DNA of 64,000 nt. Origin: Alphaproteobacteria bacterium. Its GTDB lineage: Bacteria > Pseudomonadota > Alphaproteobacteria > Rhizobiales > Hyphomicrobiaceae. Position numbers and translations under genes: made by a program. Position 1 is the first letter of the stretch. Each line of letters opens with the position of its first letter. Below are positions 16,181-23,294 of this stretch, in pieces. The notes beneath the pieces are model-generated. The model had not been told where the DNA came from and searched no databases. It saw only the letters and a list, made by a program, of their open reading frames with translations. The stretch covers positions 62,001-126,000 of the forward strand of contig JAGVSR010000148.1 of the NCBI GenBank assembly GCA_019137195.1, given 5' to 3'.

Positions 16181-16708
16181 ATGAACGACGCCATCAGAGG
16201 ATCCCAGTCGTCACGCGCTTACAGCCTCGGGGGGCTTGCGCTCATGATCTCGCTCGCCAGCATCCTCACGGCGCTCGGGTTCCAGTACATCGGGGGCTAC
16301 CTGCCGTGCCCGCTGTGCCTGATGCAGCGCTGGGCCTATTACGCGGCCATTCCGATCCTGTTCGTTGCCATGGCTCTCGCCGTCGAGCGGCCTCGGGTGG
16401 CGGCGGTTTTGTTCGGCCTTGCAGCTCTGGCTTTTCTCGGCAATGCCGGTTTGGGGGCCTATCACGCGGGCGTCGAATGGAAATTCTGGCCAGGCCCTGA
16501 TACGTGCGCGGCCGTCAATGCGATGCCGGCGAGCGCCGGCGACCTTCTAGCCGACATCGAGCACCCGGTCGTTCGCTGCGACGAGCCCGCGTGGCGGCTG
16601 TTCGGACTGTCGTTCGCCGGCTGGAACGTGGTTATCTGTTTGCTGCTCGCCTTCCTGGCCTTCACGGCCGCGCAAGCCGCAAGAGAAAGTCGTAGCAATT
16701 TCAATTGA
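16181..16708 (+). CDS. DsbB-family disulfide bond formation protein
   Basis: A 175-aa inner-membrane oxidoreductase that would reoxidise a periplasmic thiol oxidase using quinone. Four membrane helices are predicted. The first periplasmic loop holds PCPLCLMQRWAYYAA, with the redox pair CPLC. The second periplasmic loop has Cys in PDTCAAVN and in VVRCDEP, completing the four-cysteine DsbB pattern. Length is typical. No DsbA gene lies beside it in the window, so the electron donor is elsewhere. Confidence 0.92.
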   Translation: MNDAIRGSQSSRAYSLGGLALMISLASILTALGFQYIGGYLPCPLCLMQRWAYYAAIPILFVAMALAVERPRVAAVLFGLAALAFLGNAGLGAYHAGVEWKFWPGPDTCAAVNAMPASAGDLLADIEHPVVRCDEPAWRLFGLSFAGWNVVICLLLAFLAFTAAQAARESRSNFN

Positions 16709-17704
16709 TTACTTCTTTTTGCACAGGGTGTCGGATGCGCATCGGCTGGCAACGTCCTTGAAATCGGCTGCACCTGTGGCTTTCTGAACAAACGTAAAGC
16801 CAAATACCCTCAATCAATCGTCGGCTCGCCATTTTTGTGCCCGAGTGTGGCAGTTAATTCACACTCATTCGAGGAACACATAGGGAACCTCAAGGGCAGA
16901 GCTGACACCGAGCCGTAAGATCAGGGTCGTAATTCCCCCGTACAACCCCATCCCACGGACCGGCAGCGGCGAAGCCCGTCAGCTCCCGAGTTGTCCTCCC
17001 CGGACCGGCTCTCTGCGTAGGCACCGGGTGCGAGTTCAGTAATGCGTACGCGTGAGTAGCGTGAGTATCGAGTTTGCGTAGGTGCTGGCCGGCGGAGCGT
17101 GCTCCCCGTGGGTTCCGTCCGGCCGTCAGCGGGCTGCTCCAAGGATTTCGTCCTCGTGTACCGGCGAGCGGCCCGCCACCCTTCACTGCCATTAGCGATT
17201 TGAGTTGCGTATCGTTGCGTACCCTAAGCGTCTGTCGCGTTCGTTGCGTCTGGTTGCGTCGAGTCTGTCCCGTAAGCGTCTGGTATTGCGTGCAAGTCGA
17301 GGCGTTCAAAATGAATGAAGAAGCGAGTGAGTGGCGTCCGCTTTCAGATGTCGTCGGCTGCGTTCTTTCCGAGACCCTGGAAGCGAGCAGGTTGCGTATC
17401 GGGTGCGTTCCCGCCGGCCCTCTGGCGGAGTGAGAATCGAGATTGGAGGGTGCCCCCACCTTCCCAACAGGATGGCAAGCATGTTCGGCGCGTGACGGCA
17501 AATTCGAAGGCCTCGGGTGACCGGTTCTGCGTTCCGAAGCCAAGTGCCGGATGTGCTTGCCGCCCGCTTCTGACGAGTTGCCGCCCTTGCCTCGGAAAGA
17601 TCCCGAGGTTGCCACGACCCGATCTCGAAAGCGCCCGCGTTCAAGTGTGTCAGTGAGCTTAACGAAGTCACGACGAGTCGATCGCTCGAGGAGGCGATAC
17701 CCCC
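16709..17704. other. 1-kb region without a convincing gene
   Basis: Open frames exist on both strands (the longest at 16890-17615, minus), but all have skewed, low-complexity translations (Arg/Thr/Ser-rich) and no recognisable domain. The first 150 nt are more AT-rich than the surroundings. The middle contains many GCGT tetramers, culminating in a phased array at 17205-17291. The region ends with a good ribosome site (GAGGAGG) for the small gene at 17705. No tRNA or known RNA fold was recognised. Confidence 0.6.
17205..17291. repeat. phased array of eight NNGCGT hexamers
   Basis: TTGCGT occurs at 17205, 17215, 17244, 17254 and 17286. AAGCGT occurs at 17226 and 17274, and TCGCGT at 17235. Start-to-start distances are 10, 11, 9, 9, 10, 20 and 12 nt, that is close to one helical turn with one position skipped. 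All copies face the same way. This looks like a multi-site protein-binding array rather than coding sequence. Confidence 0.6.
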
Positions 17705-17920
17705 ATGACCCCCGCCCACATCAATCCCTTGCAGTGGCATCAGGCCCAGGGCATCGCGCGCCAGTCTTGCGCCCGCTTCTTCCGCGACGGCGGCAAGCCA
17801 TCGGACGCGCTGTTGGCATTCGGCCTTCCCGCCGACGCCGTTCCCGCTGCCGACTGGAGCAAGGCCGTGGAGGCGATTGCCGCGGTGCTGTGCGCGACTC
17901 CCGTGCGCAAGGCCGCGTGA
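17705..17920 (+). CDS. small conserved-looking hypothetical protein
   Basis: A 71-aa protein with a strong ribosome site (GAGGAGG, 10 nt before ATG) and a rho-independent terminator 80 nt after the stop, so it appears to be a stand-alone transcription unit. It is mostly helical with an amphipathic pattern (INPLQWHQAQGIARQSCARF, then AADWSKAVEAIAAVLC). It has no signal peptide or membrane segment and carries two cysteines. I do not recognise a family. Codon use is GC3-rich like neighbouring genes, which supports it being real. Confidence 0.65.
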   Translation: MTPAHINPLQWHQAQGIARQSCARFFRDGGKPSDALLAFGLPADAVPAADWSKAVEAIAAVLCATPVRKAA

Positions 17921-17999
17921 GCGGCACTACGGAATTTGCGTTCGAGTGGCGTTGTCTCCCACCCGTTCGCGCGCGTACCCTCAAAGTCCTTCCATCACT

Positions 18000-18030
18000 G
18001 AGGCCCCATTGCTGGGGCCTCTTCTTTTTT
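18000..18030 (+). terminator. rho-independent terminator of the small gene
   Basis: GAGGCCCC - ATTGCT loop - GGGGCCTC, an 8-bp perfect GC-rich stem, is followed by TTCTTTTTT. It ends the transcript of the 71-aa gene upstream. Confidence 0.85.
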
Positions 18031-18035
18031 CGAGC

Positions 18036-18061
18036 GTGTCTGCCAGTCGTGTCTGCCAGTC
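18036..18061. repeat. 13-bp tandem duplication
   Basis: GTGTCTGCCAGTC is repeated exactly twice head to tail just after the terminator. No function is evident; slippage is likely. Confidence 0.8.
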
Positions 18062-18289
18062 CGGCGCTGCATCGATAGGCTGGGGCGACGGGCCATGGGT
18101 CGACCGAGACATCGCGTCCGCATTTCAGCGTGACGACGAGAAGCGGTCGGCGCGTCGGACAGGAGCGGTGCAAATCGGCCGAGAGCAACACCAGACCTTG
18201 CACTTTTCGCCGAAGCGCGCCGTCGCTCTAGCATTCCGGCTACGCGCGCCCCGCGCCGGATGATCGGGTTCTGCTTGTCCGGATGCGCG

Positions 18290-18850
18290 CTAGGGCTCGA
18301 GCTCGGTATCCCAATACAGATAGTCGAGCCAGCTGTCGTGCAGGTAGTTGGGCGGGAACAGGCGCCCGTTTCTGTGCAACTCGAACACCGTCGGTCGATA
18401 GGGGAACTGCGCCGGCTTCATGCCGACGGCGTCCGGCATATGCCCGCCCTTCTTCAGGTTGCACGGCGAGCAGGCTGCGACCACGTTCTCCCATCGCGTC
18501 TCGCCACCGCGCGAGCGCGGAATGAGGTGGTCGAACGTCAGATCCTCCTTCGCCCCGCAGTACTGGCAGGTGAAGCGGTCGCGCAGGAAGACGTTGAAGC
18601 GCGTGAACGCCGGATAGAGCGCGGGCTTGACGTAGGTCTTGAGCGAGACGACCGACGGCAGGCGCATCTCCACGTTGGGGCTGCGGACAAAGCGATCGTA
18701 CTCGGAGACGATGTTGACCCGGTCCAAAAAGACGGCCTTCACCGACTCCTGCCAGCTCCAGAGCGACAACGGGTAGTAGCTCAGGGGCCGGAAGTCGGCG
18801 TTCAAGACCAGTGCCGGAAAGGATTCCGGCGAGGCAGCATGAGCGTTCAC
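18290..18850 (-). CDS. HNH endonuclease family protein
   Basis: A 186-aa protein starting at GTG 18850 behind AGGAAG. The HNH domain occupies about residues 92-135: FTCQYCGAKEDLTFDHLIPRSRG followed by WENVVAACSPCNLKKGG. Two CxxC pairs bind a structural zinc, and His in FDHLIP is the expected catalytic residue. The N-terminal part (ALVLNADFRPLSYYPLSLWSWQE) matches the widespread chromosomal HNH group of alphaproteobacteria, whose role is not settled. No restriction or phage genes accompany it. Confidence 0.92.
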   Translation of the reverse strand: MNAHAASPESFPALVLNADFRPLSYYPLSLWSWQESVKAVFLDRVNIVSEYDRFVRSPNVEMRLPSVVSLKTYVKPALYPAFTRFNVFLRDRFTCQYCGAKEDLTFDHLIPRSRGGETRWENVVAACSPCNLKKGGHMPDAVGMKPAQFPYRPTVFELHRNGRLFPPNYLHDSWLDYLYWDTELEP

Positions 18851-21513: not shown

Positions 21514-23088
21514 TCAGATCAGGAAGAAATCCATGCGGTCGAGCGAGCCGGCGAAACCGACGATGTTGGCGATCTCCCGGATCGCCTGAACTCCCGTGCC
21601 GTCAGGGTCGAACCACAGCTTCGATGTGTCGGTCTCGTAGACGAGCTGCGGTCCGGCGAGGGTTGCCGCCGGCGTCGTGCTGTTGATGATCTGGTCCTGG
21701 GAGAGCAGCGCCGGTGCTGGATTGTCGAACGAAACGCTCAAGTAGGCATTGAAGTCAAAGTCGCTTAACTTGATCCAGAACAGGTCCTCGCCTGCGTCGA
21801 AACCATTGACGTAGTCCACTCCCGGCAGCGTCAGATCGAGCCAGAAGATGTCGCGCAGGCCGTCCTCGGTGCCGAAAAAGTTGTCGTAGAGGTGGTCGTC
21901 GCCCAACCCGCCGTGCAGAACCTCGGTGCCCGAGGCGTCGAAGATGTTGTCGTCGCCGCCCGAGCCTTCGGCGATGCCATTGACCGCCGGGCGCAGGCTG
22001 TCGTTCTTCTGCGATCCGATGACGTTCTCGATGCCGGCGTAGGTGTCGCCAGTCGCCTTGCCGCCCGCGGTTCCGTTGGTGAGGTACACGGTGACGCCGG
22101 AGCTCGTGACATCGGCGTAGCTCACGGTGTCGTCGCCAGCCCCGCCGACCAGCGTATCTGCATCGTCGTCGTCGCCCGGCATCAAGATATCGTTGCCGGT
22201 TCCGCCGTTCAGCGAGTCGGCGCCGCTGCCGCCGGAGAGGATGTCGTTGCCGCCGTTGCCGGCCAGCTCGTCGCTACCGCCCGAGGCCTTGAAGTAATTG
22301 TCCGCCGCATCGCCTAGGATCATATCGCTGCCGGAGTCGGACCCGTAGACGATCTCGACATTGGCGATCGTATCTCCCTGCGCGTCACCATTGGCGCCGG
22401 TGCCAGCGGAGAGGTCGATGCTGACGCCAAACAGCGAGTTGGCGTACGAGACCGTGTCGCGATCACCGCCGCCGCCGTCGATCGAGTCTGCGCCTGCGCC
22501 GCCTTCGAAATAGTCGGAATCCGCGCCGCCGATCAGGGTGTCGTTGCCGCCGCCGCCGATCAGGTAGTCGTTGGCGCCGCCGCCGATCAGCATGTTGTCG
22601 GCATCGTCGCCGACGAGATGGTTGGTTGTGGCGCTGCCAACGACGTTCTCGATGCCGGAGTATTTATCGCCGAGCGAGCCCTCGGCACCGAGGCCGGTCG
22701 AAAGGTCGATGACGAAGGAGTTGATGCCGGCGACGGGAGCGGCCGCATAGCTCAGCGTGTCGATGCCAGAGCTGCCGATGAATACGTCGGCACCCGTTCC
22801 GGCGAGCAGCACGTCATTGCCTGCCCCACCATTCAAGGTATCGCTGCCCGACCCGCCGTCCAGGGTGTCGTTGCCCTTGTCGCCATTGAGCTTGTCGCTG
22901 CCCTTCTGGCCGTAGAGCCTGTCGTTGCCGTTGCCGCCGTAGAGCTTGTCGCTGCCGTCGCCACCATAGAGCCTGTCGTTGCCGCTCTGCCCTTTGAGAT
23001 CGTCGTTCCCGGCGTAGCCGTAGAGGTAGTCGTTGCCAGAAAATCCGTTCAGGATGTCTCGCTTCTTTGTGCCCTTGATGGTCGCCAT
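21514..23088 (-). CDS. RTX-type calcium-binding repeat protein
   Basis: A 524-aa protein from ATG 23088 (MATIKGTKKRDILNGFSGND); the frame continues six codons upstream. The N-terminal 85 residues are uninterrupted nonapeptide repeats of GGxGxDxLx type, and further RTX blocks are spread up to about residue 400. These form calcium-bound beta-rolls outside the cell. There is no Sec signal; RTX proteins usually leave by type I secretion through a C-terminal signal, and the last 60 residues fit such a tail. No type I transporter genes lie nearby, and no catalytic domain was recognised. Confidence 0.9.
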   Translation of the reverse strand: MATIKGTKKRDILNGFSGNDYLYGYAGNDDLKGQSGNDRLYGGDGSDKLYGGNGNDRLYGQKGSDKLNGDKGNDTLDGGSGSDTLNGGAGNDVLLAGTGADVFIGSSGIDTLSYAAAPVAGINSFVIDLSTGLGAEGSLGDKYSGIENVVGSATTNHLVGDDADNMLIGGGANDYLIGGGGNDTLIGGADSDYFEGGAGADSIDGGGGDRDTVSYANSLFGVSIDLSAGTGANGDAQGDTIANVEIVYGSDSGSDMILGDAADNYFKASGGSDELAGNGGNDILSGGSGADSLNGGTGNDILMPGDDDDADTLVGGAGDDTVSYADVTSSGVTVYLTNGTAGGKATGDTYAGIENVIGSQKNDSLRPAVNGIAEGSGGDDNIFDASGTEVLHGGLGDDHLYDNFFGTEDGLRDIFWLDLTLPGVDYVNGFDAGEDLFWIKLSDFDFNAYLSVSFDNPAPALLSQDQIINSTTPAATLAGPQLVYETDTSKLWFDPDGTGVQAIREIANIVGFAGSLDRMDFFLI

Positions 23089-23294
23089 CGCAATGCCTCG
23101 CCGCAATTCAGATCAAATCCGTTGCGGTCAGAATGCGTGCGGGAGGCGCAACGGGGTAAGCTGGCGAAAGTCACAAGTCGCGATGTTGGCAAAGTTCTCG
23201 TGAAGCCTGGGACCTGGCGAGCCCATGCGACCTCCAGTCGGGTCGATCCGCGACCTTCCGGCAACACGGCTGGCCGTTTCGATCCGCGACCGTC

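Follow-up and report, generated by a model that had tools for sequence, protein, structure and literature searches.

A conserved GCGT-rich leader with a five-nucleotide step, apparently an RNA, upstream of small ORFs in Hyphomicrobiaceae

Introduction

A five-nucleotide register in an RNA-binding protein is mainly familiar from TRAP. The protein binds 11 (G/U)AG repeats, and GAGUU repeated 11 times is the test RNA in one report (PMC4027176). The locus described here resembles the Bacillus trp leader bound by TRAP (MtrB) in that short G-containing words are arrayed in a leader; when the leaders are pooled, a period of 5 nt is seen for GAG as well. It differs in that GCGU is its commonest word (1231 GCGT against 389 GAGT), its array is several times longer, and no trp gene is seen beside it. 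TRAP itself (PF02081) was considered as the binder and rejected, with matches in 0 of 20 genomes, that of the window included, while the Bacillus subtilis control was positive.

OLE, GOLLD, ROOL and HEARO are large, ornate bacterial RNAs that are long, structured and clade-limited. The RNA proposed here would share these three traits; unlike them, it has a 5-nt array as its hallmark and ORFs inside, and there is no Rfam match at gathering thresholds. Caulobacter sidA is an SOS-controlled gene for a tiny protein. As in SOS small-protein genes of this type, a LexA-type operator of the form GTTC-N7-GTTC (operator as given in PMC12700426) is found at the gene for a tiny protein, but the present locus adds a long array leader and an RNA domain, and its ORF1 and ORF2 match no family. 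The RNAs CsrB and CsrC bind several CsrA dimers and sequester them, as stated in one account (PMC5027483). The likeness to CsrB, CsrC and RsmY lies in one short motif present in many copies on one RNA; the differences are that the motif is GCGU/GAGU and not GGA, and that ORFs and a LexA-type box are present. In the pooled 800-nt leaders GGA is rarer than its complement TCC, with 477 occurrences against 840.

The long conserved RNA leader is apparently uncatalogued. A published account of this RNA was not found in the literature covered, which takes in few subscription journals, and absence from print is not claimed.

Organization of the locus

The window is a 64,000-nt (64-kb) stretch of DNA from an alphaproteobacterium of the Hyphomicrobiaceae. 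Along its plus strand lie, in this order, a promoter-like core, the array, ORF1, an RNA domain and ORF2 (Table 1). With confidence somewhat above even, the locus is read as giving one transcript, often under LexA control, whose leader array would be a landing strip for a putative oligomeric RNA-binding protein. The parts of this reading differ in strength. The RNA, the array and the ORFs are well supported by sequence comparison, which also supports the strand assigned to the domain, the domain itself, the selection on GCGT, the promoter-like core and the LexA-type box. A promoter and its control by LexA are likely, while the binding protein and the purpose of binding are what we infer from the pattern.

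Table 1. Coordinates of the features of the locus within the window.
Feature	Position	Strand	Description
-10-like hexamer TTAATT	16854..16859	+	Part of the conserved promoter-like core
LexA-operator-like box	16874..16888	+	GAAC-ACATAGG-GAAC; 20 nt after the -10-like hexamer
First GCGT/GAGT cluster	16988..17100	+	11 G[CA]GT starts, 16988 to 17097
Main GU array	17202..17305	+	Step of about 5 nt; 19 GT starts; includes the eight GCGT sites first annotated
ORF1	17311..17433	+	40 aa, MNEEASEWRPLSDVVGCVLSETL...; conserved peptide xWRxLxDVVGxVL
Structured RNA domain	17474..17561	+	Covariation; model R1 62.3 bits on +, 21.4 bits on -
ORF2	17705..17920	+	71 aa, MTPAHINPLQWHQAQGIARQSCARFFRDGG...; predicted helical
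Intrinsic-terminator-like hairpin and T tract	18000..18031	+	Sole such site in 16500-18300; possible transcript end

Clustering and strand of the GCGT sites

A first-pass annotation of this DNA had described eight hexamers ending in GCGT at 17205-17291, spaced by about 10 nt on one face of the helix in a gene-free kilobase. The eight sites are where it placed them, all on the plus strand (GCGT starts at 17207, 17217, 17228, 17237, 17246, 17256, 17276 and 17288), and ACGC, the opposite-strand word, is absent among them. Their clustering exceeds chance. In 16709-17704, GCGT occurs 22 times and ACGC once; the expectation for GCGT is 9.1±2.6, and none of 1000 dinucleotide shuffles reaches 22. The densest 87 nt of the same stretch hold eight GCGT, against a shuffle mean of 2.8, and 0 of 1000 shuffles reach eight. 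The array region also has the highest GCGT density per 300 nt in the whole window (15, with 11 for the runner-up).

The annotation held that coding sequence does not explain the array, and named translation into a conserved protein as a test that could overturn it. Such coding is found in the neighbouring stretches, ORF1 and ORF2, and not in the array, which is not itself a conserved ORF. The claim about the array therefore stands, whereas the kilobase cannot be called gene-free, given the two conserved ORFs of Table 1.

A step of five nucleotides

The repeating unit is about 5 nt long. In the main array, GT starts at 17204, 17209, 17214, 17219, 17230, 17234, 17239, 17243, 17248, 17253, 17258, 17263, 17267, 17272, 17278, 17283, 17290, 17296 and 17304, with successive gaps of 5, 5, 5, 11, 4, 5, 4, 5, 5, 5, 5, 4, 5, 6, 5, 7, 6 and 8 nt, mostly 4-6 nt. 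Per 102 nt, GT reaches its highest density in the window here, both strands considered (19; the mean is 5.3), and the longest GT chain with gaps of 4-6 nt in the window, at 12 units, ends in the main array (minus strand, 5 units).

The same step emerges from the related leaders, with the near duplicates L032, L049, L050 and L059 left out of the period, folding/accessibility and GT-chain statistics. Autocorrelation of GT, GTT, GTTG, GAG and G[CA]GT in the pooled leaders peaks at 5, 10, 15, 20 and beyond. Cosine sums of G[CA]GT over the 48 non-redundant leaders give z=33.5 at period 5.0, 22.0 at 5.25 and 6.3 at period 3, against -8.2 at 10 and -12.6 at 10.5. For GT, 40 of 48 leaders lie above their own shuffle mean at period 5, and GT chains with gaps of 4-6 nt have a mean length of 9.8 units, compared with 4.3 for resampled sequence, and are longer in 45 of the 48. 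In the window alone, the period-5 level of G[CA]GT is reached by 1 of 300 shuffles and that of GT, for which the signal is modest, by 20 of 300. The step is not universal, since in two loci from other families (L094, f18; L095, f16) a GT spacing of 7 is at least as common as one of 5.

These values bear on the supposed helical phasing. Spacings between the eight GCGT starts are 10, 11, 9, 9, 10, 20 and 12 nt, and the impression of 10 nt arises because GCGT is read in about every second 5-nt unit. Periods of 10 and 10.5 fall below shuffles in the pooled leaders, and a helically phased DNA array with a period of about 10.5 bp was rejected. A comparison with shuffled local sequence, which the annotation had proposed, thus upholds the number and clustering of GCGT and replaces the spacing of about 10 nt by a step of 5. 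The original observation is right in substance, and wrong in its geometry and in its gene-free setting.

Predicted folding was compared along the leaders. For the densest 120 nt of the array, folding is on a par with shuffles (mean z 0.01); for the sparsest 120 nt of the leaders it is better (mean z -1.03). Raised openness of GCGT was not found in the predicted folds of whole leaders, in which its mean unpaired value is 0.24, compared with 0.36 for all positions and 0.20 for ACGC.

Conservation of the leader and selection on GCGT

Fifty-two loci were fetched, mostly from Hyphomicrobium, Filomicrobium and other Hyphomicrobiaceae, and the named set includes L076 (family f25) and L073 (family f16). 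Hyphomicrobium sulfonivorans and H. zavarzinii are among the species that carry the locus. Leader counts refer to those 52 loci, namely the window and 51 of the fetched ones, that have 800 nt of upstream sequence; L083, with its 213 nt upstream, was dropped. A one-strand GCGT-rich leader lies upstream of ORF2 in all 52, with 8-35 GCGT and 0-5 ACGC per 800 nt; pooled over 53 loci, ACGC reaches a total of 93 against the GCGT total given above. From -900 to -300, GCGT averages 2.4-4.2 per 100 nt; beyond -1200 the average is about 0.6 on either strand. Conservation in relatives, another check named in the first-pass annotation, is accordingly seen in the composition of the leader but not in its alignment: blastn of the window leader against 30 genomes, its own included, returns the self-match only, with 0 of 29 relatives. 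The sites are kept although the window leader is unalignable by blastn with relatives.

Retention of short words was measured in 11 close leader pairs, with each locus used once, each pair counted both ways, and tetramers with 25 or more cases considered. With 446 of 543 cases retained (82%), GCGT ranks first among 218 tetramers. Mean tetramer retention is 60%; GAGT stands at 67% (rank 39) and ACGC at 51% (22 of 43; rank 167). The top rank of GCGT indicates that the motif, GCGT above all, is under selection, as far as sequence comparison can tell.

Within the array of one leader (L052), GAGTT is repeated five times in tandem, at about -615 to -590 relative to ORF2, which hints that slippage feeds the array. 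This resemblance to recent slippage is what speaks for a degenerate pentanucleotide satellite without function, or for a mere bias in base composition. Such an origin would have to accommodate the standing of GCGT as the best-kept tetramer when ACGC is not, together with an array on one strand in 52 of 52 loci, and is very improbable.

Upstream of ORF2, the leader is found in loci of families f9, f16, f18, f25, f39 and f46, and is doubtful in f2. In f33 the array lies farther upstream in two loci (L099, L100) and is weak in the remaining loci. That of L100 runs from about -1300 to -1030, about 1 kb before ORF2 with other sequence between; the parts can therefore drift apart. The array is not seen upstream of ORF2 homologues in f8 and f11 (1500 nt viewed) or f48 (467 nt). 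As for neighbouring genes, dsbB lies upstream in 40 of 53 loci and an HNH gene downstream in 30 of 53.

The structured RNA domain

The domain behind the array has a long closing helix of the GGCAAGC/GCUUGCC type and an inner hairpin with invariant GGU...GCGU. Alignment A2, which took 42 of 45 domains (L032, L050 and L059 left out), contains 21 pairs, 17 of them with double-sided changes, and 95.7% of its cells are paired, against 26-52% when partners are slid. Among the one-sided changes, many give G-U wobbles when read on the plus strand; these, and the difference in model score between the strands (Table 1), show that the domain RNA is made from the plus strand.

Of 53 loci, a regular expression detects the domain in 45 and the model in seven of the other eight, all except the truncated L083. 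Outside the family it occurs in L087, L088, L093, L094, L095, L096 and L108 (E below 1e-5), and the model search gives nothing convincing in the other 13 loci from other families. Across the order, 19 of 297 genomes carry the domain, in one place per genome; across the class, under strict filters, the only one of 337 genomes found to carry it is the window's own.

Rfam 15 at gathering thresholds gives 0 matches in the window, and in 11 relatives it gives two tRNAs, both in L095. Below threshold, 16700-18100 contains an sR32 match (minus strand, 16919-16986, E 0.03) and a suhB/mmgR match (17970-18035, 15 bits, E 4.9), which look like chance.

The two small ORFs and a possible terminator

ORF1 lies between the array and the RNA domain. 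Its xWRxLxDVVGxVL peptide is found in 33 of 51 loci (L062 and L083 not counted) by a pattern search which, like that for the promoter core, requires some of the motif to be present and so builds in some of the conservation. Mean entropy at codon positions 1, 2 and 3 is 1.20, 0.76 and 1.46, the third position varying most, and codon pairs with a single change comprise 1153 synonymous against 902 non-synonymous cases (28 non-duplicate rows; near duplicates L032, L049, L065, L070 and L077 left out of the codon table). The window peptide has no PHROGs or Pfam match.

Among the genomes sampled, 87 of 99 in the family and 30 of 249 in the order have an ORF2 homologue. An AlphaFold2 model has three helices and a mean pLDDT of 86. 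The protein has no match in Pfam, PHROGs or, above cut-off, NCBIfam, and none in plasmid or phage records. Nor did fold searches give a clear structural match, with a best Foldseek E of 2.1 and, for VIA-align, a best Z of 2.9 (rmsd 4.6 over 44 residues); the best E of the sequence against solved structures is 0.77. Several ORF2 homologues have neither array nor RNA domain upstream (L104-L107 and L109 in f11, L110 in f8, and L103 in f48, with 467 nt), so the protein is wider in distribution than the RNA.

The terminator-like site downstream of ORF2 overlaps the sub-threshold suhB/mmgR match. The scan by itself is no evidence for a terminator, because shuffles give 2.0±1.6 sites.

Promoter-like core, LexA-type box and DnaA boxes

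The promoter-like core has the commonest form GTnACGG-TYWATT-N8/9-RTTCGCGGAAC. A regular expression in which some of the core is obligatory matches GTnACGG-TYWATT-N8/9-RTTCGCGGAACAC or a near variant in 30 of 53 main-set loci and in none of the 20 loci from other families; it also gives two coding hits, in L067 and L068. A stricter expression matches 29 of 53 loci, a count that includes the coding hit in L067. Transcription would start at about 16866-16870. Two other promoter types were tried and rejected: the EcfG promoter GGAAC-N16/17-CGTT occurs in 4 of 56 loci against 1 in the control (relaxed, 9 against 3), and two sigma-70 patterns in 0 of 56.

Exact GAAC-N7-GAAC is present at -1500..-500 in 27 of 53 loci, compared with 0 of 53 and 2 of 53 in control stretches, and other GAAC spacers there number 0-2; the spacer control GAAC-N5-GAAC is found in 11 of 53 loci within the downstream control stretch and in 1 of 53 upstream. 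The box follows the -10-like hexamer by 19-20 nt in 20 of the 29 stricter-regex loci. A LexA weight matrix (above 12 bits) picks out 27 of 63 loci on the forward strand and, over the same part, 10 of 63 on the reverse strand; far upstream it gives 0. The same box form lies upstream of lexA in eight of nine genomes (the window's own and seven relatives), the ninth being cut at a contig end. Upstream of recA, GAAC-N7-GTAC was seen by eye in six stretches, and exact GAAC-N7-GAAC in one of eight recA loci. The Caulobacter LexA box, reported as GTTCN7GTTC (PMC12700426), is the same site on the opposite strand. Because GAAC-N7-GAAC stands at the promoter core, has the same form at lexA and matches the published Caulobacter box, LexA control of the window's locus is likely, though not general among relatives. 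Several Hyphomicrobium loci keep GTTCGCGGAAC without the second GAAC.

Of 53 loci, 14 carry an exact DnaA box, TTATCCACA, upstream of the leader; in each of the two control stretches the number is 0 of 53. It lies 109-164 nt upstream of the -10-like hexamer in L032, L033, L037, L038, L039, L055 and L058, and seven further loci carry the box. In ten of the 14 the LexA box is missing, a hint that DnaA takes the place of LexA as regulator in these loci.

DnaA boxes, along with the dense same-facing sites, are also what a double-stranded DNA array would have in its favour, whether it serves a cooperative regulator or a partition, replication or nucleoid protein, as the first-pass annotation had proposed. 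Such an array sits poorly with a period of 5.0 that beats 5.25 while 10 and 10.5 fall under shuffles, and with a position downstream of the promoter-like core and before a wobble-stranded RNA domain. The GC skew does not change sign in the window, against both an origin and a terminus; as a candidate oriC or ter the locus was rejected, with 4-kb skew positive in 16 of 16 bins. A DNA array is improbable. RNA is preferred on account of the 5-nt period, the single strand, the position downstream of the promoter-like core and the wobble-covarying domain behind. An array of repeated binding sites is therefore still the best reading, with the evidence favouring RNA and not DNA bound on one face of the helix.

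Possible roles of the array

The preferred reading, an RNA landing strip, would take the following form. The locus would be one transcription unit of the Hyphomicrobiaceae and some neighbouring families, with its own promoter, a leader, the ORFs, the domain and probably a terminator, all parts presumably on one transcript, and with a LexA-type operator overlapping the promoter in about half of the species. The leader would extend about 0.6-1.4 kb to ORF2 (about 0.84 kb in the window), with G-C/A-G-U as the core of the array. The array would be bound as single-stranded RNA by a putative oligomeric protein taking about one pentamer per protomer, so that many protomers gather on each transcript. 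Binding may act on ORF1 and ORF2 in cis, may remove the protein from other RNAs, or both, probably after DNA damage. The freedom between A and C at position 2 ill suits a single partner RNA, which argues for a protein ligand; both bases carry an exocyclic amino group, which suits protein recognition. That the ligand would be oligomeric is suggested by the 5-nt register over many units. A 5-nt-phased array of this length would imply an RNA-binding protein with a 5-nt register in genomes in which TRAP was not found, and the LexA-type box at the promoter suggests when the RNA is made.

Two narrower versions of this reading divide on where the protein acts. A cis role is favoured by the arrangement, in which the array comes first, then the RNA domain, then ORF2. 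On a purely cis account, array binding and folding of the 3′ domain would set transcription elongation or translation of ORF1 and ORF2. Most of the array is 5′ of the domain, whose end lies 33-40 nt upstream of the ORF2 match in five loci (L035, L036, L042, L045 and L051), as this account would expect; on the other hand, the array is far longer than the 11-site TRAP leader, and ORF2 homologues occur without an array in the three families named above (f8, f11 and f48, over the lengths viewed). This version is a serious possibility that nevertheless falls short of even chances.

Titration, too, would fit so large a number of sites. The second version is accordingly a trans sponge of the CsrB kind, sequestering an RNA-binding protein with the ORFs secondary; 8-35 GCGT per 800-nt leader, maintained without blastn alignment of the window leader to 29 relatives, and the LexA-type control would both fit. 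The conservation of the ORF2 protein and of ORF1 beside the array, at the frequencies given above, suits cis action better. Moreover, viewing 20 of 27 pattern matches in 24 genomes revealed no extended second array (the densest were L143, with 7 GCGT per 200 nt, and L137/L147), so no trans targets were seen among these matches. The sponge version is rather doubtful.

A further possibility, which we hold to be unlikely, is that the leader of a DNA-damage-induced mRNA serves as a scaffold on which a protein, possibly one of the two small ones encoded there, lines up in 5-nt steps. The line-up would yield a ring, a filament or a condensate, and the 3′ hairpin domain would be its nucleation or control element. 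If true, this would be a new class of RNA-protein assembly.

Elsewhere in the window, 21514-23106 on the minus strand encodes a protein rich in GGxGxD-like repeats, of the RTX/calcium-binding type as judged by eye; the tandem repeats of the window are strongest in the stretch that contains it.
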